64,000 nt of DNA, taken from Sphaerisporangium rubeum (GTDB taxonomy: Bacteria > Actinomycetota > Actinomycetes > Streptosporangiales > Streptosporangiaceae). Numbering within the stretch: the first letter of the stretch is position 1; each line of letters starts with the position of its first letter. Both the position numbers and the translations under genes were made by a program. Shown one piece after another: positions 2,793 to 40,846 of the stretch. Under the pieces are notes generated by a model that made no database searches, was not told the DNA's origin, and saw nothing but the letters and a program-made list of their open reading frames with translations. The stretch lies in contig NZ_JACHIU010000001.1 of the NCBI RefSeq assembly GCF_014207705.1, forward strand, positions 7,246,501-7,310,500. The letters are read 5' to 3'.

Positions 2793-3253
2793 CGCACTGC
2801 CCTTTCCGCGTGCGCTGCCCCGGCGGCCAGCGTCTCGACGTACGACCGGAAGGCGCCGATCCCGGTGTCCTCGGGGAAGACCGCGGAGTAGCCGGCGGCC
2901 AGGAGCGGGCCGGTGACCCGTGGCCCGCCGGTCCCTGAGGTGGTCAGCTTGCCGCCGATGACCAGCGGGACGGTGGCGAGACCCGGCGAGCCACGCAGCC
3001 GGCGCGCGAGCCTGACACCGCTCGCCAGGCCGTGGCCGTTGACCGTGCCGATGACGACCAGGCCGGGACGGTGCCGCCTGCATTCCCGGACGACGAGCCC
3101 GTCCGGCACGCAGGCGCCGAGATTGACCACCTCGTGGCCGAGTTCCCGCAGCACCAGTTCGATGTAGACCAGGTTCCATGTGTGGGAGTCGCACTCCAGG
3201 CCGGACACGAGTGCACGCGGTCCGCCTGAGTGGGGTGAACGGTCGTGAGCCAT
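2789..3253 (-). CDS. Glutamate (methylaspartate) mutase sigma subunit, B12-binding
   Basis: This 154-residue protein is a stand-alone cobalamin-binding Rossmann domain. The base-off B12 signature is seen as ECDSHTWN, which keeps the Asp and the cobalt-ligating His but has Trp-Asn where the fermentative enzyme has Val-Gly. It is followed by LGHEVVNLG, LVVIGTVNGHG and PLVIGGKL, the strands that wrap the nucleotide tail. The family partner is the epsilon subunit encoded directly downstream. The DSHTWN form is, as I recall, common in secondary-metabolite mutases, which fits its operon position. The gene starts at an ATG 15 bp after the dehydrogenase stop, still within the same transcript. Confidence 0.87.
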   Translation of the reverse strand: MAHDRSPHSGGPRALVSGLECDSHTWNLVYIELVLRELGHEVVNLGACVPDGLVVRECRRHRPGLVVIGTVNGHGLASGVRLARRLRGSPGLATVPLVIGGKLTTSGTGGPRVTGPLLAAGYSAVFPEDTGIGAFRSYVETLAAGAAHAERAVR

Positions 3254-3268
3254 GCGAGTAGGACCTGC

Positions 3269-4237
3269 CTAGGTCGTCAGGACGATCTTTCCGAACACGT
3301 CGCCGGAGGCCAGCGCGGCGATGCCGGCCGCCGCGTCGGTGAGCGGCAGCACCTGGTGGACGAGTGGAAGTACGCCTGTCCTGTCGCAGAAGCGCAGCAG
3401 CGCGACCAGTTCGTCCCGTGTGCCGAGGGTGGAGCCGATCACGCCGATCTGGCGGTAGAAGACACGGGACAGGTTGATCACGGGCCGGGCCCCGGTGGTC
3501 GCGCCGGCCACGACGACCACGCCGCCGGGACGTACGGCGTTCACCGAGTGGTCCCAGGTCGCCGCGCCGACGGTCTCCATGACGGCGTCCACCCGCTCGG
3601 GGAGCCGCGCACCCGGCGGGTACGCCTCGTCCACCCCCAGGGAGCGGGCCAGTTCCCGCTTACGCGGGCTGCGGCTGGTGGCCCAGACCCGGTGACCCGC
3701 GGCGACCGCCATCATGATGAGCGCCGTGGACACCCCGCCGCCGACACCCTGCACGAGCACCGTGGAGCCGGGAGGCAGGGCCGCCTTGCCGAACAGCATG
3801 CGGTAGGCCGTGAGCCACGCGCCGGGAAGGCAGGCGGCCTGTTCGAAGGTCATGCCGGCCGGCTTCGGCACCAGGTTGCGCGCCGGGACGGCCACACGTT
3901 CGGCGAACGTGCCGTCGTACTCCTGCGACAGCAGCCGCATGCCGGGGTCCAGGGTCTCGTCGCCGTGGCCGGCCCCCGGGTCGCCGACGACGGGGTACAC
4001 GACGACCTCCCGGCCGTCCTCGTCCAGGCCGGCGGCCTCCACGCCGAGCACGATCGGCAGCCTCTCGGGGACGACGCCGACGCCGCGCAGGGTCCACAGG
4101 TCATGGTGGTTGACTCCGGCGGCCTTCACGGTGACGACGGTCCAGCCGTCGGGTACGTGGGGCTCGGGCCACTCCCCGAGGGCCAGCGCGGCCAGCGGGT
4201 CGGCCGGGTCGGTGCGCCGGGCCACGGCGGCGAACAT
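3269..4237 (-). CDS. Zinc-type alcohol dehydrogenase / quinone oxidoreductase-like MDR enzyme
   Basis: This 322-residue medium-chain dehydrogenase/reductase has the GroES-like catalytic half (KAAGVNHHDLWTLRG, ACLPGAWLTAYR) and the nucleotide-binding half with VLVQGVGGGVSTALI. The Ala-rich turn after the glycines and the lack of an obvious structural-zinc four-cysteine lobe suggest an NADPH:quinone-oxidoreductase or enoyl-reductase-like member. Its ATG overlaps the stop of the KAS III gene (ATGA). In this operon it could reduce an enoyl or keto intermediate built by the KAS III or carrier-protein enzymes; the substrate cannot be read from sequence. Confidence 0.78.
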   Translation of the reverse strand: MFAAVARRTDPADPLAALALGEWPEPHVPDGWTVVTVKAAGVNHHDLWTLRGVGVVPERLPIVLGVEAAGLDEDGREVVVYPVVGDPGAGHGDETLDPGMRLLSQEYDGTFAERVAVPARNLVPKPAGMTFEQAACLPGAWLTAYRMLFGKAALPPGSTVLVQGVGGGVSTALIMMAVAAGHRVWATSRSPRKRELARSLGVDEAYPPGARLPERVDAVMETVGAATWDHSVNAVRPGGVVVVAGATTGARPVINLSRVFYRQIGVIGSTLGTRDELVALLRFCDRTGVLPLVHQVLPLTDAAAGIAALASGDVFGKIVLTT

Positions 4238-5301
4238 CAGAGTTCTCCCCTGCCGTACCGGATGACCAGTGAGCCGCAGATGAAACCGGCGCCGATGCCG
4301 GCGATGACGATGACGTCGCCGGGCTTCACCTTCCGGGTGGCGACCACGTCGTGGAGCACCGTGAAGACGGTCGCCGCGCCGGTGTTGCCGAGCCAGTCGA
4401 CCGTCACGCCGGCGCGTTCGCGCTCGACGCCGAGACGGTCCATGGCGGCGTTGATGATGTTGCGATTGGCCTGGTGCACCACGAAGTGCGCGATGTCCCC
4501 CATCGTGAGGCCCGCACGCGCCACGGCGTTCTCGATGCTCCTCGGCAGGGCCTCGGTGGCCTTCTCCCACACGGCCCGGCCGTCCATCTTGAGGTAGTGG
4601 TCGCGTCGCCGCACCGTCTCCTCGGTGGCAGGCGCCGACGCGCCGCCGGCCGGGATCTCGACGCTGTGCGACAGCGCGGACTCCATGTGCCAGCCGAGCA
4701 CGCCGCTGCGGGTGTCGTCGTCGCGGCCGAGCACCACCGCGCCGGCGGCGTCGCCGAAGAACACCCGGGTGATCCGGTCCTTGGGGTCGGTGACACGTGA
4801 CATCACGTCGCCACCGATGACCAGCACGTTGCGGATGTCGGGGTTGCGCAGCATGTGCGCGCCGACGAGCACACCGAGGACGCCGCCGGCGCACGCGGCC
4901 TGGTTGAGGTCGATGGGGATGGCCCCGTGCGCTCCGATGGCCTCCATGACCATGAGCGCCGTGGACGGGATCGGCTGGTCGGGGGTGATGGTGGCGACCA
5001 CGACGGCGTCCAGGTCACGTGCCTGCACACCGCTGGTGAGCAGCGCGTGCCTGGCGGCGTCGGCGCACAGGTCCGACATGGACCTGCCGTCCTCAAGGAA
5101 GCGGCGCTCGCGGATGCCGGTGCGTGAGCGGACCCACGCGTCGTCGGTGTCGAGGTCCGCGGTGATCTCGTCGTTGGTCACGACGGTGTGCGGGATGCCG
5201 ACCCCCGTGCCGTGGAGGAGGAACGGCAGGACCGGGTGGGGCCCGGTCGCGTACCACGCCTGCTCGATCCGCGGCTCGGTGAACGCGTCGGTGGTGGTCA
5301 T
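4237..5301 (-). CDS. 3-oxoacyl-ACP synthase III (KAS III) family enzyme
   Basis: The 354-residue thiolase-fold protein keeps the full KAS III Cys-His-Asn triad: Cys in LNQAACAGGVLG, His in FVVHQANRNII and Asn in WLGNTGAATVF. The pattern TRTGIRERRF near residue 60 and the C-terminal GIGAGFICGSLVIRYG are typical of FabH. Such enzymes condense an acyl-CoA starter with malonyl-ACP or, in secondary metabolism, esterify or transfer acyl groups. In this operon, with a lone adenylation-carrier didomain and no visible multimodular synthase, it may be the only chain-extending condensation enzyme in view. Start codons on both sides overlap neighbouring genes, so it is an integral operon member. Confidence 0.88.
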   Translation of the reverse strand: MTTTDAFTEPRIEQAWYATGPHPVLPFLLHGTGVGIPHTVVTNDEITADLDTDDAWVRSRTGIRERRFLEDGRSMSDLCADAARHALLTSGVQARDLDAVVVATITPDQPIPSTALMVMEAIGAHGAIPIDLNQAACAGGVLGVLVGAHMLRNPDIRNVLVIGGDVMSRVTDPKDRITRVFFGDAAGAVVLGRDDDTRSGVLGWHMESALSHSVEIPAGGASAPATEETVRRRDHYLKMDGRAVWEKATEALPRSIENAVARAGLTMGDIAHFVVHQANRNIINAAMDRLGVERERAGVTVDWLGNTGAATVFTVLHDVVATRKVKPGDVIVIAGIGAGFICGSLVIRYGRGEL

Positions 5302-6287
5302 GAGGCCTGTCTCCTCTGCTGAGTCGGCGTCGCCGCACGTACCGTCTCGGCGAGCCCGGTCCCGTAGCGCATCCGGAACCTCGCCTGCGGCACCCGGCCA
5401 CTGAGATCGATCTTGATCGTGCGTTCCGTCGTCCAGCCGAGGAGACGGAACTCTCCCTCACCGATGTGCACGAGCGTCATCGACGGCCCGTCCGCCACGT
5501 CGAGGACCAGCCGGCCGTCCGCCGCGTACAGGCCGGCCCGCCGGTCGAGGGTCCAGCGAGCGGTGAACGCCTCCAGCGAGTCGCCGTCGAGGAAGCTCGC
5601 GGGGACACCGATCGAGCACTCCATCTCCGCCGCCTCGTCCGGCGTCAGGGGAAGCTCGGGCTTCTCGAACAGGACCTCCGACCACCGGACGCGGCGGCGG
5701 AACTCCTCGGGGAACATGTCCAGCAGCGCCGAACCGACGAAGCAGTCGATCACCAGGTGCACGCGCCGGGTCTCACCGGTGTTGTAGACGCGGTGCGGCC
5801 GGGAGAAGTCGCCGTACCACAGCTCACCGGGCTGCCAGCGATGCTCGACGCCGTCGATCACCAGCACGGCGCCGGGATTGGTGACGACCGGCACGTGCAG
5901 CCGTACCCAGCCGGCGGGAAGGCCGTACGGGTAGTCGCGGTGCTCGTCGACCGAGGCCCCCGGGCCGAGGGCCATGAGCCGCGCGGTCCGGAGGTCCGCC
6001 GGGATCCCGGCGAGGATCGAGGCCATGTACGGCGCCTCCGCCAGCAACGGCGTGTCCGCGTAGCCGGTCAGCCCCGGCCCGCCGGGGTCGGTGCGCCGGG
6101 GGTCGCCACCTTGGCTGCGCAGGGACAGCACCCGCCAGTCGGAACCGGTCTCCTCGGCGGGGCCGCTGCGGTCGAAGGTGCGCTGCGGGCTGAACCGCCG
6201 GTGGCCGAGCGCGTCCAGTTCGGCGCGCAACCGATGCGCGTCGTATCTCGGTCCGAGCGCGACGGCGCTCAACTGCGCGGTTGACAT
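5298..6287 (-). CDS. Aspartyl/asparaginyl beta-hydroxylase-like protein
   Basis: This 329-residue protein has an AspH-type double-stranded beta-helix in its first half: GPGASVDEHRDYPYG with a metal-ligand His, WVRLHVPVVTNP, then YGDFSRPHRVYNTGETRR with the second His and a 2-oxoglutarate-binding Arg. Family members hydroxylate the beta carbon of aspartyl or asparaginyl groups using Fe(II) and 2-oxoglutarate. The C-terminal 130 residues are not recognisable to me. The ATG at 6287 has a strong GGAGGAG ribosome site and lies inside the last codons of the NRPS gene (19-bp overlap). With the SyrP-like gene at 8059 the operon carries two candidate beta-hydroxylases, suggesting a doubly oxidised or stereochemically distinct residue. 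Confidence 0.72.
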   Translation of the reverse strand: MSTAQLSAVALGPRYDAHRLRAELDALGHRRFSPQRTFDRSGPAEETGSDWRVLSLRSQGGDPRRTDPGGPGLTGYADTPLLAEAPYMASILAGIPADLRTARLMALGPGASVDEHRDYPYGLPAGWVRLHVPVVTNPGAVLVIDGVEHRWQPGELWYGDFSRPHRVYNTGETRRVHLVIDCFVGSALLDMFPEEFRRRVRWSEVLFEKPELPLTPDEAAEMECSIGVPASFLDGDSLEAFTARWTLDRRAGLYAADGRLVLDVADGPSMTLVHIGEGEFRLLGWTTERTIKIDLSGRVPQARFRMRYGTGLAETVRAATPTQQRRQAS

Positions 6288-8041
6288 GCGATCTCCTCCA
6301 TGTGCGTGGCGGACAGTCCCTCGATGTGCCGGGCGAGGTCGCCGAGCCGCGGCAGCCTGTAGACCGTGCGGGTCGGGAGGACCACGCCGATGCGCCGCTT
6401 GAGGTGCGCGATGACGTACAGCGCCGTGAGCGAGTGGCCGCCGAGCGCGAAGAAGTCGTCGCTTCCCGACGCGGGTTCGACACCCAGCACCGCGGCCCAC
6501 GCCTCGGCGACGACCCGCTCGGCCGGGCTGGACAGCGCGTCCGCGGCGGACAGCCCGGGGGCGAGGTCCGGGACGGGTAGCGCGGCGTGGTCGACCTTGC
6601 CGCTCTGGTTGAGCGGCAGCGTGTCCATGGCCACGTAGAACGCGGGGACCATGGCGGCCGGCAGGTGTCCCGCCACGTGGTCGCGCAGTTCGGCGCCGGT
6701 CGCCGGGTTCCCGTCCGCCGCCGTGTGGTAGGCGACGAGCACCGGTCCGGCCTGGCCGTCGTGCGGGACGACCACGGCGCGGGCCACCGCCGGGTGGCGG
6801 GCCAGGACGGTCTCGATCTCACCGGGCTCGACGCGGTGGCCGCGGATCTTCACCTGGCGGTCGGCGCGGCCGGCGTACTCCAGGGTCCCGTCGGCGCGCC
6901 GGCGGGCCCGGTCGCCGGTGGCGTACATCCGGGACCCGTCGCCGGCGACCACGTCGGCGACGAAACGCCGGGCCGTCAGCGCCGGGCCGCGCAGGTACCC
7001 GTCGGCGAGACCCGGCCCGGCGATGTACAGCTCACCCTCCTCGTCCTGCGGTACGGGACGCAGCGCGTCGTCGAGGACGTAGGCGCGGACGCGGGGCAGC
7101 GGGGCTCCGATGTGGGGGGAGCCGGCGCCGATCCACGTGCCGGTGGAGTCCACGGCGCATTCGGTGGGCCCGTACACGTTGATCGGCTCCAGCACCCCGC
7201 GCGCGGCGGCGGCGGACAGGTCCCGCCACATCGGCTCCGGTATCGCCTCACCGCCGACGAACAGGCGCAGCGGCGTGCCGCGGTATGCGCTCGTGATCGG
7301 CTCACCGATCACACTCCAGTGCGACGGGGTGACGTCGAGGTCGGTGACACCGCTGCGGCTCAGGTGGCGGGCCAGCAGCTCGGGCTCGCCACGCATGGAG
7401 TTCTCGATGAGAACCAGCGTGTCGCCACGGCACACACGGGCCCACTGCTGCACCGAGGCGTCGAAGGAGACGGCGGCGTTCCACGCGACGACACGGTGGC
7501 CCTCGCCGTAGAAACCCGCCTCCTCCAGGGAGTCCACCAGGTGCGCCACGGCTCCCCGGCTGACCTGCACACCTTTGGGACGGCCCGTGGAGCCCGACGT
7601 GTAGATCACGTAGGCGGTGTCCCCGGGGCCGGCGCCGCCGGTCGTGTCCATGCCGGTCGTGTCCATGCCGGTCGTGTCCATGCCGGTCGTGTCCATGCCG
7701 GGGGTGACGACGAACCGCGGAGCGGCGTCGTCGATCAGCGTCTGGAGCCTGGCGTCCGGCTGGGCCGGGTCAAGAGGCAGGTACGCCGCGCCGGCCCGCC
7801 ACACGGCGAGCAGCGCCACGACCAGTCCGGCGCCACGCGGCAGCCGCACCCCGACCAGCGAACCGGGACCGGCGCCTCTGGCCGCCAGCGACCCGGCCGT
7901 GCGGGACACCCTGGCGTCCAGCTCGGCGAACGTGAGTTCGCCGTCGGGGGCGATGACCGCCGTGCGTGCAGGGAAGGCCGCGACCGCCTCGGCGAACCTC
8001 GCCATGAGGTCCGGAGCCACGGCCGTTCCACGAGTCGTCAT
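6269..8041 (-). CDS. Stand-alone NRPS adenylation-peptidyl carrier didomain protein
   Basis: The protein (about 590 residues) is an adenylation domain (core A3 YVIYTSGSTGRPKGV, A4 SFDASVQQ, A5 NVYGPTE, A8 RVEPGEIE, A10 NQSGKVD) followed by a carrier domain with the phosphopantetheine serine in FFALGGHSLTALY. No condensation or thioesterase domain is fused. Reading the specificity pocket by eye in GrsA numbering gives D235 A236 Q239 D278 F299 G301 V322 V330 D331 K517, one residue from my recollection of a bacterial Gln code (DAQDLGVVDK). A glutamine-like or methylasparagine-like substrate is therefore inferred. I chose the ATG at 8041 for its AAGGAG site; an in-frame ATG at 8062 overlapping the preceding stop is the alternative. 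MbtH is encoded upstream. Confidence 0.9.
   Translation of the reverse strand: MTTRGTAVAPDLMARFAEAVAAFPARTAVIAPDGELTFAELDARVSRTAGSLAARGAGPGSLVGVRLPRGAGLVVALLAVWRAGAAYLPLDPAQPDARLQTLIDDAAPRFVVTPGMDTTGMDTTGMDTTGMDTTGGAGPGDTAYVIYTSGSTGRPKGVQVSRGAVAHLVDSLEEAGFYGEGHRVVAWNAAVSFDASVQQWARVCRGDTLVLIENSMRGEPELLARHLSRSGVTDLDVTPSHWSVIGEPITSAYRGTPLRLFVGGEAIPEPMWRDLSAAAARGVLEPINVYGPTECAVDSTGTWIGAGSPHIGAPLPRVRAYVLDDALRPVPQDEEGELYIAGPGLADGYLRGPALTARRFVADVVAGDGSRMYATGDRARRRADGTLEYAGRADRQVKIRGHRVEPGEIETVLARHPAVARAVVVPHDGQAGPVLVAYHTAADGNPATGAELRDHVAGHLPAAMVPAFYVAMDTLPLNQSGKVDHAALPVPDLAPGLSAADALSSPAERVVAEAWAAVLGVEPASGSDDFFALGGHSLTALYVIAHLKRRIGVVLPTRTVYRLPRLGDLARHIEGLSATHMEEIACQPRS
7641..7700 (-). repeat. Four tandem 15-bp repeats inside the adenylation domain (MDTTG x4)
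   Basis: Four uninterrupted, identical copies of a 15-bp unit (gtcgtgtccatgccg on the plus strand) encode the pentapeptide Met-Asp-Thr-Thr-Gly four times. They lie between the A2 region and the A3 phosphate-binding loop, a surface linker, so length change is probably tolerated. Perfect identity suggests recent replication slippage. Confidence 0.95.
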
Positions 8042-8058
8042 CCTCACTCCTTCGACAG

Positions 8059-9084
8059 TCATCGCGGCGGCCCCGCGGCCGGGACGACGGCCGGACGGCA
8101 CGTCTCCACCGGGGTCGGCTCACCCATCGCCACGACGATCTTCCGGTCCCCGCGGAACGGGTCCCTGCCGTGCGCGGCGAGCACGTTGTCCACGAGCAGC
8201 ACGTCTCCCCGGGACCACTCCCTGCGGACCGTCGCCGCCTCGTACGCGTCGTTGATCGCGGCCACGTCCGCGCCGCCGAGCCGGCTGCCGTCGCCGAGCG
8301 CGGTGGCGAACGGCAGCCCGTCGGGACCGAACTCCGCGAGCAGGACGTCCCTGACGTCGGGATCGAGGGACCATTCGTTCCAGAAGGCGACGTGGTTGAA
8401 CCACACCTCCTCACCGGTCCGCGGATGGCGGATCAGCGCGGGACGCAGCTGCGTGGTGAACAGCCTGTCGTCGTCGAGCCACTGGTGCCCCACACGCTGC
8501 GCGGCGCAGTAGGCGGCGACCTCCGCACGCGAGTCCGCACCGAACGCGGCGCGCCAGCCGAGCGAGATGTGCTCGGAGTAGACGCGGTTCAGCAGCCACC
8601 CGTGTTCGCGGAACCGCGCGACCAGCTCCGGCGGCAGGTTCGCGAGTACCCGCCGGCAGTCCGTGACCGGGGTGGCGCCGCCGGCGAGCGGCGCCGTCAG
8701 GCAGCAGAACATCAGCACGCCGGGGAATGTCAGCGTGTAGCTGTTCTCGTTGTGCGGCCTGATGGCCTGGGACGAGGGAAGGTCGGTGGAGGAGAAGACG
8801 TCGTCGCCGAGCGCGCTGCGCGGCGTCGCCTTCTCCTTGTAGGAGGCTCTTTCGGCGACGAGCACGTCCCTGACCTCGGCGAAGTCCTGTGCGTCGTGGA
8901 TCGGCAGGCCGGCGAGATACAGCGCGCCGTGCTCGTCGAGTGCCTGCCGGATGCCGGAGCGCTCCTGGCGCAGCCATCGCAGGCAGTCGCCGAGTCCGGT
9001 CAGCGGCGGAACCTCGACCGCCACCGGTTCCCCGGGCCTGCGCAGGCACGTGACCCCGGGCCGCGAGTCGTTCAGCGTAGTCAT
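8059..9084 (-). CDS. SyrP/TauD-type Fe(II)/2-oxoglutarate dioxygenase
   Basis: This 341-residue enzyme shows the TauD/clavaminate-synthase fold. The HxE metal motif is in IRPHNENSYTL, the distal His in DNVLAAHGRDPFRGDRK, and the following Arg is placed to bind 2-oxoglutarate. Between them, FCCLTAPLAGGATPVTDCR is typical of SyrP-like members, which beta-hydroxylate aspartyl or other residues while tethered to an NRPS carrier domain. The gene directly precedes the adenylation-carrier didomain (ATGA-type contact at 8059-8062), which fits hydroxylation of the carrier-bound amino acid. No halogenase-type loss of the acidic metal ligand is seen: the Glu of HNEN is present. Confidence 0.85.
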   Translation of the reverse strand: MTTLNDSRPGVTCLRRPGEPVAVEVPPLTGLGDCLRWLRQERSGIRQALDEHGALYLAGLPIHDAQDFAEVRDVLVAERASYKEKATPRSALGDDVFSSTDLPSSQAIRPHNENSYTLTFPGVLMFCCLTAPLAGGATPVTDCRRVLANLPPELVARFREHGWLLNRVYSEHISLGWRAAFGADSRAEVAAYCAAQRVGHQWLDDDRLFTTQLRPALIRHPRTGEEVWFNHVAFWNEWSLDPDVRDVLLAEFGPDGLPFATALGDGSRLGGADVAAINDAYEAATVRREWSRGDVLLVDNVLAAHGRDPFRGDRKIVVAMGEPTPVETCRPAVVPAAGPPR

Positions 9085-9096
9085 CGTCTCTCCTAG

Positions 9097-9864
9097 TCAG
9101 GGAGTTCGTTCCAGCGCGGAAGCGGCCGTGCGGAACGAGGCCGGGAGCGTCCGCCACACGTCCGGCGTGTAGAAGTGGCCCCCGGGCAGCCGGTCGAGGT
9201 GGAACTCGGGGCCCGCCACGGCACGCCACTGGTTCCCCACCGCCGGATCGATCACCGGGTCGTCGGCGCCGTAGAGCACCTGGACGGCGGCGCCGGTCCG
9301 CGTGCCTGGCAGCGGCCGGTAGCTGTCGCGGACCCGGATGTCGGCCCGCATGAGCTCCACCGCCATCTCCCGCAGATCGGGGTCGTCGGCCGCGTAGTCG
9401 GGAAGCGAGCCTGTGGTGCGCATCCAGGCCATCAGCTCGGTCTCACCGTCCTCGATGCGCGGGAACCTGTCCCGGTCCGTCACGCCTCGGGAGGGTGCGT
9501 TGCACGAGGAGACGATCAGCAGGTCCGGGGCCGGCCCACCCGTCCGCTCGATCCGCGTGGCCACGTCGAACGCCATCCAGCCACCCATGCTGTGACCGAA
9601 CAGGACGTACGGCCGGTCGGCGACCGTACGCACGGCGGCGGTGGCGTCGGCGGCCAGTTCGTCCCACGAGGCCGCGAACGGCTCGGCGAAGCGGCCCTCG
9701 CGACCCGGGTAGCAGACCAGCGCCAGGTCGGTGTCCTCCGGCAGCGACCCGGCCCACGCGCGGTACGGCCCGGTGCCTCCGCCGCAGAAGCCGAGGCACA
9801 CCAGGACGCGTCCGGCGGACGACCGGCGCAGCGGCCGGATGACGGAGGTGCCCTGATCGATCAT
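9097..9864 (-). CDS. Type II thioesterase (alpha/beta hydrolase)
   Basis: This 255-residue alpha/beta hydrolase has the oxyanion-hole region CLGFCGGGTGPYRAWA, the nucleophile elbow FGHSMGGWMAF, an acidic residue in LYGADDPVI and the catalytic His in PGGHFYTPDV. These are hallmarks of external type II thioesterases that clear misprimed or stalled carrier domains in NRPS and PKS pathways. It lies between mbtH (2-bp gap) and the SyrP-like gene, as expected for an editing enzyme of the didomain protein. A chain-releasing role is also possible because no fused thioesterase is in view. Confidence 0.9.
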   Translation of the reverse strand: MIDQGTSVIRPLRRSSAGRVLVCLGFCGGGTGPYRAWAGSLPEDTDLALVCYPGREGRFAEPFAASWDELAADATAAVRTVADRPYVLFGHSMGGWMAFDVATRIERTGGPAPDLLIVSSCNAPSRGVTDRDRFPRIEDGETELMAWMRTTGSLPDYAADDPDLREMAVELMRADIRVRDSYRPLPGTRTGAAVQVLYGADDPVIDPAVGNQWRAVAGPEFHLDRLPGGHFYTPDVWRTLPASFRTAASALERTP

Positions 9865-9866
9865 CG

Positions 9867-10070
9867 TTACCTCCCGGCGGTGCGGGAGCTCTTGGGACGG
9901 ATGTCGGTCCACACGGCGTCGATGTGGTCGAGACAGCTCTGGCGGCTGCCGGGCCCGTGTGCGACGCGCCACCCCTGCGGCACACCGATGGATTCGGGCC
10001 ACAAAGAGCGTTGTTCCTCATCGTTGACCAGGACCAAATAGCGGGAATCCTCATTGTCGAACGGATTCAT
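9867..10070 (-). CDS. MbtH-like protein
   Basis: This 67-residue protein is the small chaperone-like partner that binds adenylation domains and supports their folding or activity. The conserved pattern is complete: MNPFDNEDSRYLVLVNDE, then QRSLWPES, PQGWRVAHG, and SCLDHIDAVWTDIRP with the expected tryptophans. It is the first gene of the long biosynthetic operon, preceded by an intergenic region with repeated heptamers. Its presence confirms that the free-standing adenylation domain at 6269-8041 is of the NRPS type rather than an acyl-CoA ligase. Confidence 0.96.
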   Translation of the reverse strand: MNPFDNEDSRYLVLVNDEEQRSLWPESIGVPQGWRVAHGPGSRQSCLDHIDAVWTDIRPKSSRTAGR

Positions 10071-10140
10071 TTCGCCTCCCGTGCGGAATCGATGAAACGA
10101 GCGTAAATGCGCCTCTGGCAGGCCGGCGGCGGTTGGAAGA

Positions 10141-10191
10141 GGCAGTTGAGCGGCAGTTCACCGCGGTGCGGCAGTTCTCAGTGCGGCAGTT
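10141..10191 (-). promoter_or_regulatory. Four AACTGCC heptamers upstream of the mbtH operon
   Basis: The 158-bp gap between the exporter and mbtH contains GGCAGTT (AACTGCC on the minus strand) four times, starting at 10141, 10152, 10170 and 10185. The first pair is 11 bp apart, one helical turn, as in SARP-type heptamer arrays; the others are 18 and 15 bp apart. Position just ahead of the operon's first gene suggests an activator-binding site for the pathway regulator. No clear -10/-35 pair was recognised. Confidence 0.45.
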
Positions 10192-10228
10192 TTCAGGCAC
10201 GACAAAACAACGGCCGGTCGGAAGGTTT

Positions 10229-11431
10229 TCAGGCGACGTTTATCTCGCGATGGTGACGGGCCAGCAAATGGCACGTCCACGCGCCTGCGACCAGCGAGAC
10301 AAGGCCGGACACGACGAAGACCACGGGAATTCCGGCCGTCGCGGCCAGCGCGCCGCCTGCCAGTGCGCCGAGCGGGATTCCCCCCCAGACGAGGGTTCTG
10401 TACGCGCCTTGCACGCGGCCGAACAACTGCTCGGGTATCAATGTCTGCCGCAGCGCCATGGTGAGAACGTTGCCGGTCATCACCAGCAGCGCGGCCAGTC
10501 CGTAAAGAGCGGTGGCGAGAAACGCGTTGCCGGTGAGACCCATGCCGGCCAGCGCCAAGGGGAACGTCAGCGAGACCAGCGCCAGGGTCCCGGCGCGGCC
10601 GAGGCGCGCGCTCAGCACCGGCGCCAGCAACCCACCGGCCAGACCGCCGACGCCGACGACGGCGAGGATGAACCCGTAGCCTCCCTCCGGGACGCGCAGC
10701 ACGTCGAGCGCGAAAAGGACGAGCACGGCGTTCGCCATGCTCTGCGCGGCGGACGTGACGGCGTTGGCGAGCGTGAGCCCCCGCAGGAACCGGTGTGAGG
10801 CGAGCCAGCGCACACCCGCGCGGATGTCGGACCCGATCGCCGCGCGCCGTTCTCCCGGCGGCCTGAAGGCACCGCCGACCGTCACCATCAGCGCCGCGGC
10901 CAGCGCGAACGCCAGAGCGTTCGCGAACAGCGGCGCGGCCACGAAGACGCCGAACAGCACGGCGCCGACGGGAGCGCCGACATAGGACTGGCCGCCGATC
11001 TCCGCGGTCGACAACATGCTGTTGCCGCGTTCGAGCTGGTCGCGGCGCACCACCATGGGGAGCATCGCACGTCCCGCGCTGTCGTAGACGGTCTCCGCGA
11101 CACCCACGGCGAACACCGCGACGTACAGCACCGCGATGTGCGTCCACCCCACCGCGCTGCCGACCGCCAGCACGCCGAAGGCCGCTCCCCGGAACAGGGT
11201 GGCGGTGACCAGCGCCGTCTTGCGGTCGTGCCGGTCGACGAGCGCGCCGACCGGCAGCGCGCACAGCAGCCACGGCAGGAACGCCAGCGTCGTCAGCGCG
11301 GAGATCGCCAAGGGGTCGCGGGTCAGCGTGGTGGCGAGCAACGGCAGAACCGTCCGGCCGATGCCGTCCGCCACGTTGGAGACCCCCGAGGAGATCAACA
11401 GGCGCCAGAACGCCGTGCCGTAGCCGCTCAT
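10229..11431 (-). CDS. MFS exporter
   Basis: This 400-residue protein has about twelve hydrophobic segments and the MFS loop signature LVDRHDRKTALV between helices 2 and 3. The N-terminal helix region (ISSGVSNVADGIGRTVLPLL) resembles the enterobactin-exporter (EntS) type of drug/siderophore exporter. The ATG overlaps the stop of the XRE/NB-ARC regulator (ATGA), so exporter and regulator are co-expressed. It likely exports the cluster product or gives self-resistance; the substrate is inferred from context only. Confidence 0.85.
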   Translation of the reverse strand: MSGYGTAFWRLLISSGVSNVADGIGRTVLPLLATTLTRDPLAISALTTLAFLPWLLCALPVGALVDRHDRKTALVTATLFRGAAFGVLAVGSAVGWTHIAVLYVAVFAVGVAETVYDSAGRAMLPMVVRRDQLERGNSMLSTAEIGGQSYVGAPVGAVLFGVFVAAPLFANALAFALAAALMVTVGGAFRPPGERRAAIGSDIRAGVRWLASHRFLRGLTLANAVTSAAQSMANAVLVLFALDVLRVPEGGYGFILAVVGVGGLAGGLLAPVLSARLGRAGTLALVSLTFPLALAGMGLTGNAFLATALYGLAALLVMTGNVLTMALRQTLIPEQLFGRVQGAYRTLVWGGIPLGALAGGALAATAGIPVVFVVSGLVSLVAGAWTCHLLARHHREINVA

Positions 11432-12747
11432 CGCCGCGCGTCCGCTGACCCCGCGAGCCGGCGCGGCCGCTCCGGGAGGCCGCGGTGGCGCGAGGAGACG
11501 GCCACGCCGAGCGGAGCGGTCCCCGCGCGCGACCTCTCCGCGCTCAGCAGCCGTACCAGCCCGAGCACCTCGAACCGCGCGCCGTCCTCGGTCACCGGCC
11601 GCACGACACCGCGGACGAGCAACCGCCGTACCAGGAGCGCGCACCTCACCACCGGCAGGCCGGTCATCGCGACGGCCTCCTCCACCGACCAGCCCCTGTC
11701 GAGCCTGGCGAGCCGGTCGAGCAGCGCGGTCTCGGCCGGGTCCAGTGCGTCCAGCACGTCCGTGAGAAGCCGGCGGATGTCGGCGTCGCCGCAGGGCCCC
11801 GACTGGAAGCTCAGCGGATCCGCCTGGATCCGCCTCAGCAGTGACCCGGGGTCGTACACCAGCAGCCAGGCCGCCGCCGCCTCGATCGGCGCGGGCAGGC
11901 CGTCCAGCAGCCGGCACAACTCCGCCGTGACCCGCGCGTTCGCGGCGTCCAGCCGGAGATCGGGACGGACCTGGCGCACGTGGCGGGTCAGGAGGCGGAC
12001 GGCGGGGACGGCGTCATGGCAGGTCCCGCGTTCCGGGACACCGAGCGGCCTCAAGGGGAACACGGTCTCGCCGGGAACGTCGAAGGAGGTCCGTGACGTG
12101 ATGAGGACGCGTAGCCGCCGGTAGTCGTGGAGCAGTGCCACGAGCGCGGCGAGACGCGACGGCGAGGGCTCGTAACCGTCGAGGACGAGCAGCGCCGGCT
12201 CGTCCTGCGCGGCGTGCTCCCCGGCGAGGCCGCCGAACTCGCCGGACCCGGCCCGCATGTCCTCCTCCTGTGTCCCCTCAGGCGGTCCCCGGCGCGCGGA
12301 CCGCCATCGCACCGGCAGATCACCGGCCGCGTCCAGCAGGTTGGCCACCTCGATCGCCGTCCTGGTCTTGCCGGCCATCGGGAGGCCGGTGATCGTCACC
12401 AGACGCTGTTCTCCTCTGGTGAGCAGGTCCACGAGCACGGCCGACTCGGACTCGCGGCCCACGAGTTCGTCCCACGACGCCGGTGGGACCGTCCACCCTT
12501 CCGCGGACCGCGGCGCGCACACCGGCGCGGCGCGTCCCGCCGCCGCGAAGTGCTCCCTGCTCCGTCCGGTGAGGCCGAGCCCGTCGGCGATCAACTCGAC
12601 CGTCCCCGGTCTCGGCCTGGACACCCGGCCCAGTTCGATGTCACGGATGGCCCGCACACTGACCGTCGCCAGATCGGCGAGCTGCCGCTGCGTGATGCCC
12701 CGTCTGGTGCGGCAGTGACGCAGAAGTTCCCCGAATCCGTCGTTCAT
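11428..12747 (-). CDS. XRE-type regulator with NB-ARC ATPase domain
   Basis: The first 70 residues are an XRE helix-turn-helix (LRHCRTRRGITQRQLADLAT, then VSVRAIRDIELGRVSRPRP). A STAND/NB-ARC region follows, opening with the Walker A-like loop TITGLPMAGKTRTAI and an acidic Walker B-like strand PALLVLDGYE; GLPAPIEAAAAWLL matches the later GLPLALxxAA motif. A winged-helix segment ends the protein and there are no C-terminal TPRs, making it short (439 residues) for the family. In GLPMAGKT the second Gly of the usual GxGGxGKT loop is replaced. The ATG at 12747 has a good GGAGAGG site. It is probably a ligand-gated regulator of the adjoining cluster, co-transcribed with the MFS exporter. Confidence 0.82.
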   Translation of the reverse strand: MNDGFGELLRHCRTRRGITQRQLADLATVSVRAIRDIELGRVSRPRPGTVELIADGLGLTGRSREHFAAAGRAAPVCAPRSAEGWTVPPASWDELVGRESESAVLVDLLTRGEQRLVTITGLPMAGKTRTAIEVANLLDAAGDLPVRWRSARRGPPEGTQEEDMRAGSGEFGGLAGEHAAQDEPALLVLDGYEPSPSRLAALVALLHDYRRLRVLITSRTSFDVPGETVFPLRPLGVPERGTCHDAVPAVRLLTRHVRQVRPDLRLDAANARVTAELCRLLDGLPAPIEAAAAWLLVYDPGSLLRRIQADPLSFQSGPCGDADIRRLLTDVLDALDPAETALLDRLARLDRGWSVEEAVAMTGLPVVRCALLVRRLLVRGVVRPVTEDGARFEVLGLVRLLSAERSRAGTAPLGVAVSSRHRGLPERPRRLAGSADARR

Positions 12748-12767
12748 GGTTCGCCTCTCCTGCGCCG

Positions 12768-12860
12768 TCAGTGCGGCAGCGGCCGGCCGGACGGCGTACG
12801 GAGGTCGAGTTCCGGGGCCGTTCCGGGCCGCCTGAGCGAGGTGCGGTGTATACGGCGCAT
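12768..12860 (-). CDS. Possible 30-residue peptide gene between the transthyretin-like gene and the regulator
   Basis: This short frame starts at an ATG 5 bp after the transthyretin-like gene's stop, with an AAAGGGTGAG ribosome-site-like sequence that includes that stop. It ends 20 bp before the regulator's ATG, filling the gap exactly. The peptide is Arg-rich at the N-terminus and ends LDLRTPSGRPLPH. Third codon positions are about 85% G/C, like real genes here. I do not recognise a family. It could be a small peptide or simply a spacer read-through. Confidence 0.4.
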   Translation of the reverse strand: MRRIHRTSLRRPGTAPELDLRTPSGRPLPH

Positions 12861-12865
12861 CTTTC

Positions 12866-13201
12866 TCACCCTTTCTGGTCGGTTCCATGCACGATCGTGT
12901 GTGAGTACGGCGTCACCAGCACCATGAAATGCAGTGGTTCGTCGGGATTCACGACCCTGAAACACGTGGAGATCTGCGGGAAAACGGGGAGTATTCCGAA
13001 CGACGCGTAGTAGGAGTCGATGTCGACGACGATCCGGAAAACCCCGCGGACGGCGGGAGGCGGCGGCCGCCAGAAGCGCAGGCAACCGCTCGCGTCCGTA
13101 CGTCCCGTGGCCGGCCGCTCCCACACCCCTTCCGACCTGGCCTGCAACCGGGCCGCGACTCCGTCGACCGGACGGCCCTGCGCGCAGTCGACGACCTTCA
13201 T
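12866..13201 (-). CDS. Transthyretin/5-hydroxyisourate-hydrolase-like small protein
   Basis: The roughly 111-residue protein follows the transthyretin-like fold pattern: MKVVDCAQGRPVDGVAARL at the N-terminus, GRTDASGCLRFW in the middle, VFRIVVDIDSYYASFG and a C-terminal VTPYSHTIVHGTD where true HIU hydrolases end in a YRGS tetrapeptide. The catalytic His/Arg set and the YRGS tail are altered, so uricolytic activity is unlikely. It sits upstream of the XRE/NB-ARC regulator on the same strand and opposite the secreted GPPWG peptide gene. Its role is unknown; a binding or sensing accessory is conceivable. A TTG at 13213, preceded closely by GGAGGAG, is an alternative start. Confidence 0.68.
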   Translation of the reverse strand: MKVVDCAQGRPVDGVAARLQARSEGVWERPATGRTDASGCLRFWRPPPPAVRGVFRIVVDIDSYYASFGILPVFPQISTCFRVVNPDEPLHFMVLVTPYSHTIVHGTDQKG

Positions 13202-13312
13202 CGTTATGCTCAAGGCTCCTCCAGGCCGGGCAGCGTTTGCACCGCGGAATGGCTCGCACCGGCTGCCGTCGTGCGGTGGAACCGGCGCGTGGCGCTCACG
13301 TTTTCCGCCGCC

Positions 13313-13389
13313 GCTATCACCGCGCTATCACCGCGCAAAACGGCGATGCCACGCCATCTCATTGAGGTGTCGCTTACCGCAGTGATAGC
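13313..13389. promoter_or_regulatory. Direct and inverted GCTATCAC repeats in the divergent promoter region
   Basis: GCTATCACCGC occurs twice back to back (13313-13323 and 13324-13334), an exact 11-bp direct repeat, and the reverse complement GTGATAGC recurs at 13382-13389. The sites lie between the minus-strand transthyretin-like/regulator operon and the plus-strand GPPWG peptide gene. Tandem repeats of one helical turn are the usual form of SARP binding sites, so control by the SARP at 13744 or the XRE regulator is inferred. A TTGACA hexamer follows at 13415. Confidence 0.5.
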
Positions 13390-13493
13390 CATCGTTTGGG
13401 GGCTGAGCGTTCAGTTGACATCACGAGACGGACCCCGGCCGAAGGGTCCGGCGGATCCCCGCGACAGGCGGCGGACGTCAGGGAGGTAACCAA

Positions 13494-13718
13494 ATGACCG
13501 GCACCACCATCCGGCATCACCTCGGCATCGCGGCCGTCCTCCTGGCGCTCGCCGGCGGCTGGGCCGCCTCGTCGCCGGCCGGTGCCGAGACCACCACGGT
13601 CACCGCGATGATCCAGCTCGACGGCCCGCCGTGGGGTGTCGCCGGTGAGCAGGAGCCGGCCGGTCCGCCGTGGGGTGTCGCGGATCCCGAGCAGCCGTCG
13701 GGTCCGCCGTGGGGCTGA
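13494..13718 (+). CDS. Secreted small peptide with three GPPWG repeats
   Basis: The 74-residue product begins with a Sec-type signal peptide (basic MTGTTIRHH, hydrophobic IAAVLLALAGGWAA, likely cleavage after Ala-Gly-Ala). The mature 43 residues end in three GPPWG units at an exact 13-residue (39-bp) period (13623, 13662, 13701), the first two followed by VA and the last being the C-terminus. There is no cysteine. GGGAGGT lies 7 bp before the ATG, an excellent ribosome site. It is divergent from the transthyretin-like/XRE operon and convergent with the SARP gene, 25 bp from its stop. No modification enzyme is adjacent. A secreted signalling peptide or pheromone precursor is my inference; the family is not known to me. 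Confidence 0.75.
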   Translation: MTGTTIRHHLGIAAVLLALAGGWAASSPAGAETTTVTAMIQLDGPPWGVAGEQEPAGPPWGVADPEQPSGPPWG

Positions 13719-13743: not shown

Positions 13744-16700
13744 TCAGTCCCGGTCGTCCGGCGGCGGCTCCGCGTCCAGCCTGGTGAGAGCCGCGCCGAT
13801 GTGCTCCGCCAGCACCAGGTCGATGCCGGCCGCCAGTTCCCTGGCCGCGCGCCACGAATCCTTCGCGGCCTCGGCACGGCCGGCCGCCTCGTGGACCCGG
13901 CCGGCGAGGTCCAGCACGCGGGCCTGCCACACCGCCGCGGAGCCGAGAGCCTCCAGCGCGCCGCGTGCCTCCTCCAGTCTCGACAGCGCCGCACCGGGCC
14001 GGCCCTGCGCGAAGTCGAGTTCGCCGAGGCCGAGCAGCACCCGGCCGCGGACGAGCAGATCCCCCGTCCGTCCGGCCAGCGCGTACGCCGCGTCGAGGTC
14101 GGCCTTCGCCTGAGCGAAGGCCTCCTGCCTGATCCGCGCGACACCCACACCGAGCAGTGCGTACGCCTGACCGACGATGTCGCCGACCATGTTGGCCGTC
14201 ACCTCGACGGACTTGAACGCCTCGATCGCGTCCTCCATCTGGTCCCTCAGCAGGTACAACTCCGCCAGCTCGTACTCCACCTGGGCCTGGACCCGCCGTG
14301 AGCCGGCCCTCCTGCACCTGACGAGCGCCTTGTGCAGACACGCACCCGCCAGGTCGAACCCCCGGCGATCCTTGTGGATCTTGGCCATCTCGAGCAGCAT
14401 GTGCGCCTCGCCGACCGGGTCGCCGGCCCTCTGGAAGTCGGTGAGCGCCTGCTCGTGACGCCGCATCGCGAGGTCGTACCGCCCCTCCAGGCGGTCGACG
14501 AACGCCAGCCCGCCGAGGGACAAGGCCCTGCCGTGCGCGTCCCCCAGCTCCTCGAACAGCCGCAGCGCCTGCGTCAGGCACCGCGACGCGTCCTTCAGCC
14601 GTCCTCTCAGGGCCAACGTGCCGAGCGAATACAACATGGCGGCCTCGCCACGGCGGTTGCCGGCGGCCCGGACCGCGGCGAGCGCGCACTCATGGGTTTC
14701 CCGCCAGTCGTCCACATGGGAACCCGCCTCGAACAGCGTGACCGACGTGATGGCCAGGTCCCAGCACAGTTCGTCGAGCCCGGCCTGACCGGCACGGAAC
14801 ACCGCGCTCACCAGCGCCGTGTGCTCGACCCTCAACCAGTCGAGCGGCTCGGCCAGCAGGACGTCCGCGGTGGTCGAGGGCAACGGCCACAACTCCGCGT
14901 CGCCATGCAGGACGCAGTAGTCGCCGCCGTACTCACGCCGATGGGCCTCCGCGGCGAGGAACAGCCAGCATCCGATGAGTCTGCGCAGCGACGCGACGCG
15001 TTCCCCCGTGGACTCCTCCTCCGCCAGCCGTTCCAAGGCGAAGATCCGCACCAGATCGTGGAGGTGGTAGCGGACCATTCCGTCCTCGTCGAGCCTGGCC
15101 TCCACCAGCCGTGCGTCGACCAGGCTCTCCAGCAGGTTCTCCGCGTGATGGACGTCGCAGTCGAGCAACGGCGCCGCCACCCAGGAGGCGAAACCGACCT
15201 GTCCGAGCTGTCCCAGCCTCATGAACAGCCGCCGGCGGTCGTCGTCCAGGCCGTCGAAGGAGAACGACAACGTCGCGCGGATGTTCACACCGTTGATGTC
15301 CAGCTCGTCCAGCCGCTGCCGCTCGTCCCTGAGCCTGCGCACCAGGTGACCGACCCGCCAGTGCGGCCGCGCCGCCAGCTTCGCCGCGGCGATGTTGAGC
15401 GCCAGCGGCAACCGGTCGCACAGCTCCACCAGGGTGCGGACCGAATCGGTCTCGACACCGGCGCGGTCCGCGCCGATCACCTCGGCCACGAGCGTCACAC
15501 CGGCTCTCTCGTCAAGCGCGCCGACCTCGAACTGGTACGCGCTGACCAGGCCGTTCAACCGGTTCCGCGTCGTGATGAGCACCGCGCACGTGGACGTTCC
15601 CGGCAGCAGCGGAGCCACCTGGCTCAGCGTCATGGCGTCGTCGATGACGATCAGGATCCTGCGTTCGGCGACCCAGCTCCGGTACATCGCGGCCCGGTCC
15701 TCCGTACCGGAGGGGATCATGTCGGGTGCCACGCCGAACGAACGCAGGATCTTCTCCAGCAGCCGTTCGGGAGCCTCCGTCCGCCCTCCCTCCATGTGGA
15801 ACGGCGCGAACAACTGCCCGTTCGGATAGCCCTCCCTGAGGATGTGCGCCGCGCGCAACGCCAGCGCCGTCTTCCCGACCCCGCCGATGCCGGTCAGCAC
15901 GACGACCGGCGCCGACGGGGACTCCCCCCGCGTGTCGTCGTCGTGCGACAACAGCGAGACGACGCGATTGAGAAGGTCCTCGCGACCCACCAGCTCCGCC
16001 GCCGCCGGCAACTGCCGCGGCACCGGCACGGCCGCCGTCCATCCGGCCTGCACCGCCGGGCTCTTGACCTCGGACGGAAGTTCGAGAGAGTCGTCTTCGA
16101 GCAGGATGGCCTGTTCGAGCTGCCGGAGCTCGCTCCCCGGATCCAGCCCCAGTTCCTCGAGCAGGATCTCCCTGCCCTCCCTGAACGTGTCCAGCGCCTC
16201 GGCCTGCCGTCCCGAACGGTAGAGAGCGATCATCAACTGCGCGCGCATCCGCTCTCTCAGCGGATGCTCCGCGACCAGTTCCCCCAGCTCGGCGATGACA
16301 TCACGATGCCGTCCGAGCTGGAGCTCGATGTCCAGGCAGTCCTCGAGGATCCTCAGCCGCGTCTCGTTCAGTCGTGTCGCCGCCGAACTCACGATCCGGC
16401 TCTCCACCCCCGCGAGCGCGGGCCCCCGCCACAACGACAACGCCGACCTGAAGTGCCCGGCCGCGTCCGGCAACCGGCCGTCACCCGCCGCCGCCGTCCC
16501 CACGGCCACCAGCTTCTCGAAGCGCGTCATGTCCAGCGCGTCGTCCGCCACCTCGATCACGTACCCGGGTGGCCGCGTGGAGATCAGTGCCTCGTCCCGT
16601 CCCTCTTCCAGCAGCCGCCGCAGCCCCGAGATGATCATCTGTAACTGGGTCCTGGCCGTCCGAGGCGGCTCCTCGTCCCACAGCGCCTCAAGCAACCGGT

Positions 16701-16827
16701 TCACGGGGACGACCCGGCCGGCTTCGAGCAGCAACATCGCCAGAACCGTCTCTTGCCGAGAGGCCGCGATACTTCGAGACCGCCCATCGATCACAACCTC
16801 GAGAGCACCAAGCAGCCGGAATTCCAT
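13744..16827 (-). CDS. SARP-NB-ARC-TPR transcriptional regulator (AfsR type)
   Basis: The 1027-residue protein has an OmpR-type winged helix (about residues 1-95, LLEALWDEEPPRTARTQLQM), a bacterial transcriptional activation domain (about 98-245), an NB-ARC ATPase with Walker A VLTGIGGVGKTALAL and Walker B ILIVIDDAM, the motif LCDRLPLALNIAAAK, and a long C-terminal helical-repeat region of TPR type (about 660-1010). This is full AfsR-like architecture for an activator of secondary metabolism; the NB-ARC/TPR part usually senses a ligand or partner. The gene is monocistronic on the minus strand and ends 25 bp from the stop of the GPPWG peptide gene, so each could be the other's partner. Likely targets are the repeat arrays at 10141 and 13313. 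Confidence 0.93.
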   Translation of the reverse strand: MEFRLLGALEVVIDGRSRSIAASRQETVLAMLLLEAGRVVPVNRLLEALWDEEPPRTARTQLQMIISGLRRLLEEGRDEALISTRPPGYVIEVADDALDMTRFEKLVAVGTAAAGDGRLPDAAGHFRSALSLWRGPALAGVESRIVSSAATRLNETRLRILEDCLDIELQLGRHRDVIAELGELVAEHPLRERMRAQLMIALYRSGRQAEALDTFREGREILLEELGLDPGSELRQLEQAILLEDDSLELPSEVKSPAVQAGWTAAVPVPRQLPAAAELVGREDLLNRVVSLLSHDDDTRGESPSAPVVVLTGIGGVGKTALALRAAHILREGYPNGQLFAPFHMEGGRTEAPERLLEKILRSFGVAPDMIPSGTEDRAAMYRSWVAERRILIVIDDAMTLSQVAPLLPGTSTCAVLITTRNRLNGLVSAYQFEVGALDERAGVTLVAEVIGADRAGVETDSVRTLVELCDRLPLALNIAAAKLAARPHWRVGHLVRRLRDERQRLDELDINGVNIRATLSFSFDGLDDDRRRLFMRLGQLGQVGFASWVAAPLLDCDVHHAENLLESLVDARLVEARLDEDGMVRYHLHDLVRIFALERLAEEESTGERVASLRRLIGCWLFLAAEAHRREYGGDYCVLHGDAELWPLPSTTADVLLAEPLDWLRVEHTALVSAVFRAGQAGLDELCWDLAITSVTLFEAGSHVDDWRETHECALAAVRAAGNRRGEAAMLYSLGTLALRGRLKDASRCLTQALRLFEELGDAHGRALSLGGLAFVDRLEGRYDLAMRRHEQALTDFQRAGDPVGEAHMLLEMAKIHKDRRGFDLAGACLHKALVRCRRAGSRRVQAQVEYELAELYLLRDQMEDAIEAFKSVEVTANMVGDIVGQAYALLGVGVARIRQEAFAQAKADLDAAYALAGRTGDLLVRGRVLLGLGELDFAQGRPGAALSRLEEARGALEALGSAAVWQARVLDLAGRVHEAAGRAEAAKDSWRAARELAAGIDLVLAEHIGAALTRLDAEPPPDDRD

Positions 16828-40815: not shown

Positions 40816-40846
40816 TGCATCCCCCAGGGTCAATCATGAGCCTTAC

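Follow-up and report, generated by a model that had tools for sequence, protein, structure and literature searches.

The gene at 13494-13718 (+) of the window, the whole 64,000-nucleotide stretch of Sphaerisporangium rubeum DNA analysed here, codes for a small export-like peptide with three Pro-Trp (PW) units and belongs to a family of PW peptides found beside one clade of SARP-NB-ARC-TPR regulators (SARP, Streptomyces antibiotic regulatory protein). The gene itself, its family, its linkage to SARP genes, its repeats and the SARP-type promoter of the upstream-type members could be established by comparing sequences. Building on these, we lean slightly towards the view that a short PW peptide is released from this product after export, that the SARP controls its production, and that the SARP also senses it through its TPR end. 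An earlier note on this DNA had proposed a pheromone precursor or secreted co-factor; a linked family, recurring tandem units and the absence of a curated model agree with that proposal, and the promoter fits either a signal or a plain output.

The open reading frame (ORF) translates to MTGTTIRHHLGIAAVLLALAGGWAASSPAGAETTTVTAMIQLDGPPWGVAGEQEPAGPPWGVADPEQPSGPPWG* and contains no cysteine. Its N-terminus is hydrophobic with an A-x-A site, and its crude hydrophobicity score of 2.52 lies above the threshold. The three GPPWG units are spaced by exactly 13 residues, or 39 bp, and the protein ends in WG. Apart from the A-x-A site and the hydrophobicity score, these features, together with the ribosome site, had been listed in the earlier note and were confirmed in the sequence. 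The note had also placed a SARP-NB-ARC-TPR gene next to the peptide gene, and Pfam bears this out (BTAD 2.1e-48, NB-ARC 1.1e-12 and TPR_12 3.1e-20); the two genes are convergent, with a gap of 25 bases between their ORFs. The features are as follows.

13494-13718 (+): PW-repeat peptide precursor gene, 74 aa (ORF and translation, family comparison)
13481-13487 (+): ribosome binding site GGGAGGT, the ATG following six bases on (read directly)
13494-13586 (+): signal-peptide-like N-terminus, possible cleavage between AGA and E after residue 31 (read from the translation)
13623-13637 (+): GPPWG unit 1, residues 44-48 (sequence and translation)
13662-13676 (+): GPPWG unit 2, residues 57-61 (sequence and translation)
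13701-13715 (+): GPPWG unit 3, residues 70-74, abutting the stop codon (sequence and translation)
13744-16827 (-): SARP-NB-ARC-TPR regulator of AfsR-like architecture, 1027 aa (Pfam, NCBIfam, trees)

SARP loci of the window's family were collected at E ≤ 1e-225 from 341 genomes, with the best two candidates scored per genome, and a peptide ORF was called on PW[GD] no more than 10 residues from the end, a ribosome-site score and a distance of at most 700 bp from the SARP. The results showed such an ORF at 41 of the 64 loci, and its distribution followed that of a transthyretin/hydroxyisourate hydrolase (HIUase)-like gene, which in the window lies on the far side of the peptide gene.

12866-13213 (-): transthyretin/HIUase-like gene, 115 aa, TTG start, GGAGG (PF00576, 1.6e-13)

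The transthyretin-like gene is present at 44 of the 64 loci (weakly at L207, E 4e-4), and the peptide ORF was found at 40 of these 44 and at 1 of the 20 without it; when a hydrophobic segment was also required, the counts were 31/44 and 0/20. The single ORF in the latter group, at L215, has no hydrophobic segment and is chance-like. The four misses were L204 (GEPWHTC), L214 (CCNTWP), and L219 and L220, where no peptide was seen. Three of the 20 loci (L109, L126 and L129) have upstream flanks shorter than 1.3 kb, and L185, cut by a contig end, was kept in the denominators. At loci outside this gene module, some ORFs that look like chance also fitted the loose tail expression (e.g. L111, L123, L128, L129, L203, L211 and L215). 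A search starting from the transthyretin-like gene (200 genomes) yielded 16 further loci, 10 of them with a PW peptide; L290 has CCGSWP instead, and the other five have no peptide, among them L280, which is a contig end of the same genome as L185 and perhaps its other half.

At 35 of the 40 loci the peptide gene lies upstream on the SARP strand (~250-630 bp), and at five, namely the window, L207, L222, L223 and L224, it is convergent. The nearest three SARPs (L222, L223 and L224; 52-53% identity) thus have the layout of the window, with tails SGPLPWG, three GGTPWG and DGPPWG, respectively. Within the genus of the window, a small ORF ending in GGNTPWG or a near form precedes SARPs of about 45% identity by ~400 bp. 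On the SARP tree the four labels clustered, requiring 10 changes against a shuffled mean of 28. The earlier note had made its proposal depend on homologues with conserved WG tails beside NB-ARC regulators, and this check came out in its favour: a PW-tail family does stand beside this SARP clade.

Whole-peptide tblastn against 297 family genomes and the genome contigs gave no convincing relative; the family is visible by position, tail and promoter only, not by whole-length search. The tail pattern CCNTGGGGNTRA occurred at 53 sites in the window's own genome (reversed control, 9), and nearly all of the 50 sites fetched were short or out-of-place frames and so were rejected; L068 (identical with L005) was the only peptide-like one besides the window peptide. 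Across the phylum, NTPWG followed by a stop was found in only 3 of 398 genomes, the own one included, and the tail is therefore lineage-bound. Other exported-looking small ORFs beside SARPs end in different tryptophan motifs (L334, L337, L365, L290 and L214; DESWH, EEDWH, GNWPK, CCGSWP and CCNTWP), and given these ends the peptide family may be wider than PW.

The Streptomyces set comprised 30 SARP loci from 31 matches in 121 genomes, one match without a locus being left out; six candidates were scored per genome here and in the search of a third family. A convergent PW peptide was found at 13 of the 30 loci, and 10 of the 13 contain two to four units: four of NDPWD, three of DDPWM/L, three of DTPWP (two loci), two of a DDMPWG type (four loci), two of DLPWT and two of EVPWT. 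The single-unit peptides carry NTPWT, DDLPWT and GDLPWTR, so that the tails vary among PWT, PWD, PWP, PWM and PWG. The hydrophobic segment is not clear at one of the 13, L354. The assignment of this set to Streptomyces rests on two of its genomes, G759 and G765, whose coordinates agree with those of the named records NZ_CP108509.1 and NZ_CP108679.1. Four other PW ORFs in Streptomyces flanks were chance-like and were set aside. Five DSPWE units were present in Nonomuraea gerenzanensis (L322). In the third family, a peptide with TSTPWDAPGRG is convergent with its SARP at L362, one of 22 loci read, among which the own-genome pair L110 recurred once. Several of the peptides are annotated as 'hypothetical protein': WP_330301214.1 of Streptomyces sp. 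NBC_00503 with four DDPW units, WP_328930635.1 of NBC_00048, WP_327379052.1 of NBC_01216, and WP_260640040.1 of S. angustmyceticus, whose export signal is not clear. The PW peptide family spans at least three actinomycete families and has no Pfam or NCBIfam model among the members tested; no model reached its curated cut-off with 11 members in Pfam or 7 small peptides in NCBIfam. Among the papers listed by a literature search, mostly in the open literature and judged by titles and the beginnings of abstracts, none describes such a family.

We then considered the units themselves in 15 multi-unit precursors, leaving out the near-copies L343, L347, L348 and L349. The two residues before PW agreed in 65 of 65 within-precursor unit pairs (maximum of 16 in 5000 shuffles across precursors), and the residue after W agreed in 51 of 65 (shuffles, maximum of 24), while the spacers differ in length and sequence. 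Different codons are used at 42 of 244 residues identical between units, and recent duplication explains part of the agreement within precursors. Across the family, tandem precursors hold 2 to 5 units, alike within a precursor and unlike between precursors, and the tandem label (7 family rows) requires at least 4 changes over the starred branches of the SARP tree, L112-L116, L263 and L267 having been left out. Because the units agree within precursors while the spacers vary, and tandems recur at separate points of the SARP phylogeny, the functional piece appears to be the pentapeptide xxPWx, whose code differs between systems. The 51 peptides aligned for the family had been picked by their tail, and the conservation of P and W among them is therefore not a result.

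DNA upstream of the same-strand and orphan peptide genes, the latter having no SARP match in the flanks scanned, contains GATGGC-type, GAAGCG, GATAAG and GATGGCG words at 11-bp steps. The promoter set covered 48 of the 51 peptides (L141, L147 and L188, with miscalled starts, were left out), and the anchor expression was present in 43 of the 48 upstream regions. The profile was self-similar at lag 11 (5.12), a peak partly built in by an anchor that holds two GAT-type words 11 bp apart, and at lag 22 (4.26), which is not built in. TAnnnT stands 8 bp past the last heptamer in 31 of the 43. According to excerpts of PMC10936776, SARP targets are marked by direct repeats spaced at 11 or 22 bp, the final one being 8 bp from the -10 element. 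A genus-wide scan (11 genomes, at most 1 mismatch) gave 27 motif sites against 2 for the reversed pattern, and 27 of 27 lie 40 to 81 bp before a PW ORF (77 bp at L248), including the ORF of L234, which runs on for six residues beyond PPWG and lacks an export signal. Because the promoter has SARP-type repeats at 11/22 bp and all 27 sites precede PW ORFs, these genes are, judged from sequence, very probably targets of a SARP, and the neighbouring SARP would be the obvious user of the promoter. Such a promoter fits a signal loop and a plain output alike.

In the window, one SARP-box-like tandem was found in the gap upstream of the peptide gene.

13313-13329 (-): SARP-box-like tandem GATAGCGCGGTGATAGC with a period of 11 bp, oriented towards the transthyretin-like gene (window scan)

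It is the sole 12/12 match in 64 kb, with a unit that was weighted after the family promoters had been seen, and at L325 and L328 a similar box is found in front of the peptide gene. A period-11 scan of the window gave 5 matches at 11 bp, a count no higher than at other periods.

Taken together, we infer the following chain for the precursor reading. The N-terminus would be cut off by signal peptidase and the xxPWx units released by further proteolysis (in the window, three peptides that contain GPPWG), after which an oligopeptide permease would bring the peptide back into the cell. Its target there would be the neighbouring SARP, which is a STAND-type switch; by binding to the TPR superhelix, the peptide would lift the block that the NB-ARC and TPR parts place on the SARP part. 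Once active, the SARP would switch on the divergent transthyretin-like gene together with the biosynthetic genes that follow it; in most relatives it would activate the peptide gene too, closing a peptide autoinducer loop for an antibiotic-type cluster. The repeated coded unit, its terminal place, the export-like N-terminus and the pairing with a TPR protein argue for the peptide as an input. So, from sequence, does its absence at four loci with a transthyretin-like gene (L287, L288, L289 and L291), whose SARPs have no TPR match above the Pfam cut-off, TPR content having been checked by Pfam in 11 SARPs. A broader version, held more tentatively and at somewhat less than even confidence, would make this a wide and overlooked actinomycete pheromone system: xxPWx pentapeptides with a lineage-specific code, set free in one or more copies from exported precursors and read by AfsR-type SARP-STAND-TPR regulators, in some lineages with a transthyretin-like pseudo-enzyme as co-factor, and switching antibiotic clusters.

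Several observations weigh against sensing of the peptide by the SARP, beginning with the built-in part of the lag-11 peak. The anchored promoter motif is absent at the window's peptide gene and at four other convergent ones, TA is missing from the -10 position in 12 of the 43 promoters, and the perfect box of the window faces the transthyretin-like gene, not the peptide gene. SARPs without a peptide exist: the 20 loci without a transthyretin-like gene (bar the chance-like ORF of L215), L219 and L220 despite that gene, 17 of the 30 Streptomyces loci, and in addition the Streptomyces loci L321 and L323, again despite a transthyretin-like gene. At 11 more distant loci (10 Streptomyces and 1 metagenome-assembled genome), none passed the strict filter for an exported ORF; candidates from looser filters were only chance-like ORFs, as in L094, and were discarded. 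Of the 11 orthologous SARP-adjacent copies in the genus of the window, 9 fall below the hydrophobicity threshold, although an orphan copy whose N-terminus is export-like is present in 10 of the 11 genomes; the orphan genes L150-L160 have no SARP match within ~3 to 9 kb on each side, and tail matching within genomes between SARP-adjacent and orphan copies was not significant (permutation, 0.12). Three of the four TPR-poor loci form one clade, with a second SARP next door in two genomes. Finally, extracts of PMC10936776 ascribe AfsR switching to ATP and phosphorylation, not to a peptide. The orphans L150-L160 themselves encode GNTPWG or SNTPWG peptides and have the SARP-type promoter where aligned.

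The strongest alternative, which we nevertheless regard as rather unlikely, makes the peptide an output: an exported effector (a small regulator, developmental or antimicrobial) that is switched on by a SARP controlled in some other way. It would account for the SARP-type promoter before the peptide genes, orphans included, for the scattered orphan copies in the window's genus and for the SARPs that have no peptide, and a precedent is available in afsS, a small gene beside afsR that is its direct target according to parts of PMC10936776 and PMC10972967. It explains less readily why multi-copy units are alike within a precursor, which suggests a small recognised ligand, why the TPR-poor SARPs are the ones without a peptide, and why PW peptides, mostly with export-like N-termini, conserve little but the PW unit.

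In ribosomally synthesized and post-translationally modified peptides (RiPPs), repeated short cores after a leader are common, and NB-ARC/TPR proteins occur in HaaA- and FxSxx-type RiPP systems. The PW units could accordingly be cores from which enzymes make a modified natural product; the window SARP does give below-cut-off matches to HaaA- and FxSxx-type models, and L328 lies near a lantibiotic dehydratase gene. We rate this reading as improbable, because gene clustering revealed no modification enzyme widely common to the 43 module loci (top 16 gene clusters), and the N-terminus resembles a Sec signal. In that clustering the SARP (43 loci) and the transthyretin-like gene (40) were general, the loci having been chosen partly for the latter.

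An ORF that regulates the SARP message through ribosome arrest at its conserved C-terminus would suit the 35 loci where it precedes a SARP of the same orientation by ~250-630 bp, the conserved residues at or near the end before the stop, and the genus copies without a clear export signal. Arrest fits neither the multi-unit precursors nor the export signals, and the gene is convergent with the SARP in the window, L207, L222, L223, L224 and 13 Streptomyces loci; such attenuation is highly improbable for the family, and the convergent layout excludes it for the window. That the ORF arose by chance or is a decayed gene with a repeat, as the fruitless tblastn might suggest, is scarcely credible because the peptide family exists, with position, tail, ribosome site and export-like N-terminus conserved across families though the rest is mostly unalignable; the window ORF is real and more than chance.

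We also assessed the transthyretin-like protein. HVLD, HVP and a C-terminal YRGS, which we take to be the catalytic motifs of hydroxyisourate hydrolase, are all kept in the 7 purine-type HIUase control loci (7 of 24 matched), where neither a SARP match nor an exported PW peptide was found; at one control, L296, a long ORF fits the tail expression but has no export signal. Among the module proteins, the YRGS end and HVP are absent in 39 of 39 aligned, HVLD is kept in L197, and the window protein has none of the three motifs. Against the hydrolase model (cut-off 87.45) the window protein scored 52.6 bits, below the cut-off, and L197 just above it at 88.3. Because the YRGS end and the HVP stretch are missing while all 7 controls keep both, most module transthyretin-like proteins are probably not hydrolases. 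No transthyretin-like match was found at the 13 Streptomyces peptide loci or at L324-L329, and the gene is therefore an accessory of one lineage.

In the window, the transthyretin-like gene is divergent from the peptide gene and sits between it and an XRE gene, which is the next gene on the same strand and is followed by a run of biosynthetic genes.

11428-12888 (-): XRE-type HTH protein with an ATPase-like part; the start may be 12745 (Pfam, reading)
520-11917 (-): biosynthetic genes on one strand (family scans; the listed ORFs overlap and their true starts are uncertain)

The earlier note had described an XRE/NB-ARC operon here. The XRE gene is present, Pfam did not bear out the NB-ARC assignment, giving HTH families only, although an ATPase-like stretch was recognised by eye, and the intervening transthyretin-like gene had been overlooked. 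The run at 520-11917 (-) holds MFS, thioesterase, TauD, A-PCP, Asp/Arg hydroxylase, KAS III, ADH, methylaspartate mutase E and a class II tRNA-synthetase-like protein. It is a possible target operon of the SARP, the operon being deduced from strand and spacing. The set at 520-8101 (-), with mutase E, hydroxylase, KAS III, A-PCP and the tRNA-synthetase-like protein, is perhaps a cluster for an amino-acid-derived product. The SARP-peptide pair of L328 likewise has a methylaspartate mutase close by, and that of L325 an Asp/Asn hydroxylase. The next commonest neighbour in the gene clustering, presumably LeuA-like, occurs at 17 of the 43 loci (12 named, including L162-L166, L168, L199, L204, L214, L290, L292 and L294), and L321 has leuC and a pyruvate carboxyltransferase beside its SARP, a nonribosomal peptide synthetase and the transthyretin-like gene.

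Elsewhere in the window, another peptide that looks exported and ends in W-G (MFAKLAASASILVVLF...STNVNQGFSWG) is encoded at 41143-41286 (-), upstream of an AAA/STAND-like LuxR regulator at 39406-40833 (-). The nearest relative of this regulator, L308 (74% identity over residues 141-473), has an upstream ORF that ends in HDDGFSWG and is otherwise dissimilar, and 8 weaker relatives have no convincing GFSWG-like upstream peptide. The GFSWG peptide and its LuxR regulator may form another peptide-regulator pair like that of the PW peptide and SARP. A TrmB/LuxR-type regulator at 41526-42503 (+) is divergent from the GFSWG peptide gene, and a further STAND-TPR protein, a 1093-aa ATPase with a long TPR array (TPR_10 4.7e-85), is encoded at 59344-62625 (-).

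If sensing of the PW peptide by the SARP is true, each SARP-NB-ARC-TPR regulator of this kind would gain an inducer whose sequence the genome supplies and which could be synthesised and put to the test; for silent antibiotic clusters, adding a peptide could then be tried in place of engineering. The use of short exported peptides as signals would then extend to a phylum whose signals, according to PMC10075063, are typically small molecules of enzymatic origin.

Among the closest known systems are the RRNPP/RRNPPA pairs (Rap-Phr, PlcR-PapR and AimR-AimP). According to PMC11343458 and PMC10075063, a small propeptide of Sec type is encoded there next to a cytoplasmic TPR protein, and the signal lies at the propeptide C-terminus, in some cases in 1 to 4 copies. 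RRNPPA propeptides are given as 50-120 aa, Sec-exported, with a pheromone of 5-10 residues in 1 to 4 copies (PMC11343458, in part). The window peptide falls within this description in size (74 aa) and neighbourhood (25 bases from the SARP ORF, with conserved linkage). It may also be exported, as a crude hydrophobicity score and an A-x-A site hint; 31 of the 40 in the set pass the same score. It most likely works like an RRNPP propeptide. The receptors differ: those of RRNPP are TPR proteins of 250-500 aa in excerpts of PMC10075063, and the window SARP is a BTAD-NB-ARC-TPR protein of 1027 aa whose receptor role is putative. The phylum is also another one, PW is conserved in the unit, and one lineage has a transthyretin-like partner. 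The window system is not an RRNPP member, because its proposed receptor has another architecture.

The AfsR-AfsS system likewise places a SARP-NOD-TPR regulator beside a small gene, whose promoter has direct repeats of 11 bp (sections of PMC10936776 and PMC10972967). Unlike the PW peptides, AfsS is described as sigma-factor-like, and its site is CGTT(T/C)ATCGNN (PMC10972967) as opposed to the GATRGCG type in the peptide-gene promoters here. The AfsS-type promoter, with repeats at 11/22 bp and 8 bp to the -10 element, was present in upstream-type relatives and was not found at the window's peptide gene. With 534.8 bits against a cut-off of 1430, the window SARP does not pass the AfsR equivalog model of NCBIfam.

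FxSxx-COOH and HaaA cyclophane RiPP systems combine small peptides bearing a conserved C-terminal motif with an NB-ARC/TPR protein. The window SARP remained below their models NF040586 and NF041717 (73.6 of 300 and 282.2 of 1125 bits, respectively). The PW peptides differ from these systems in motif, in their export-like N-terminus and in having no modification enzyme widely common to the loci, none having appeared in the top 16 clusters of the 43 loci or among the window neighbours scanned.

NosP, a small SARP, resembles the window system in uniting a SARP with a peptide. PMC10972967 speaks of kinases for AfsR, and for NosP of a response to peptidyl ligands from the nosiheptide precursor. The ligand of NosP comes from a RiPP precursor, and that of the window SARP would come from a dedicated repeat peptide.
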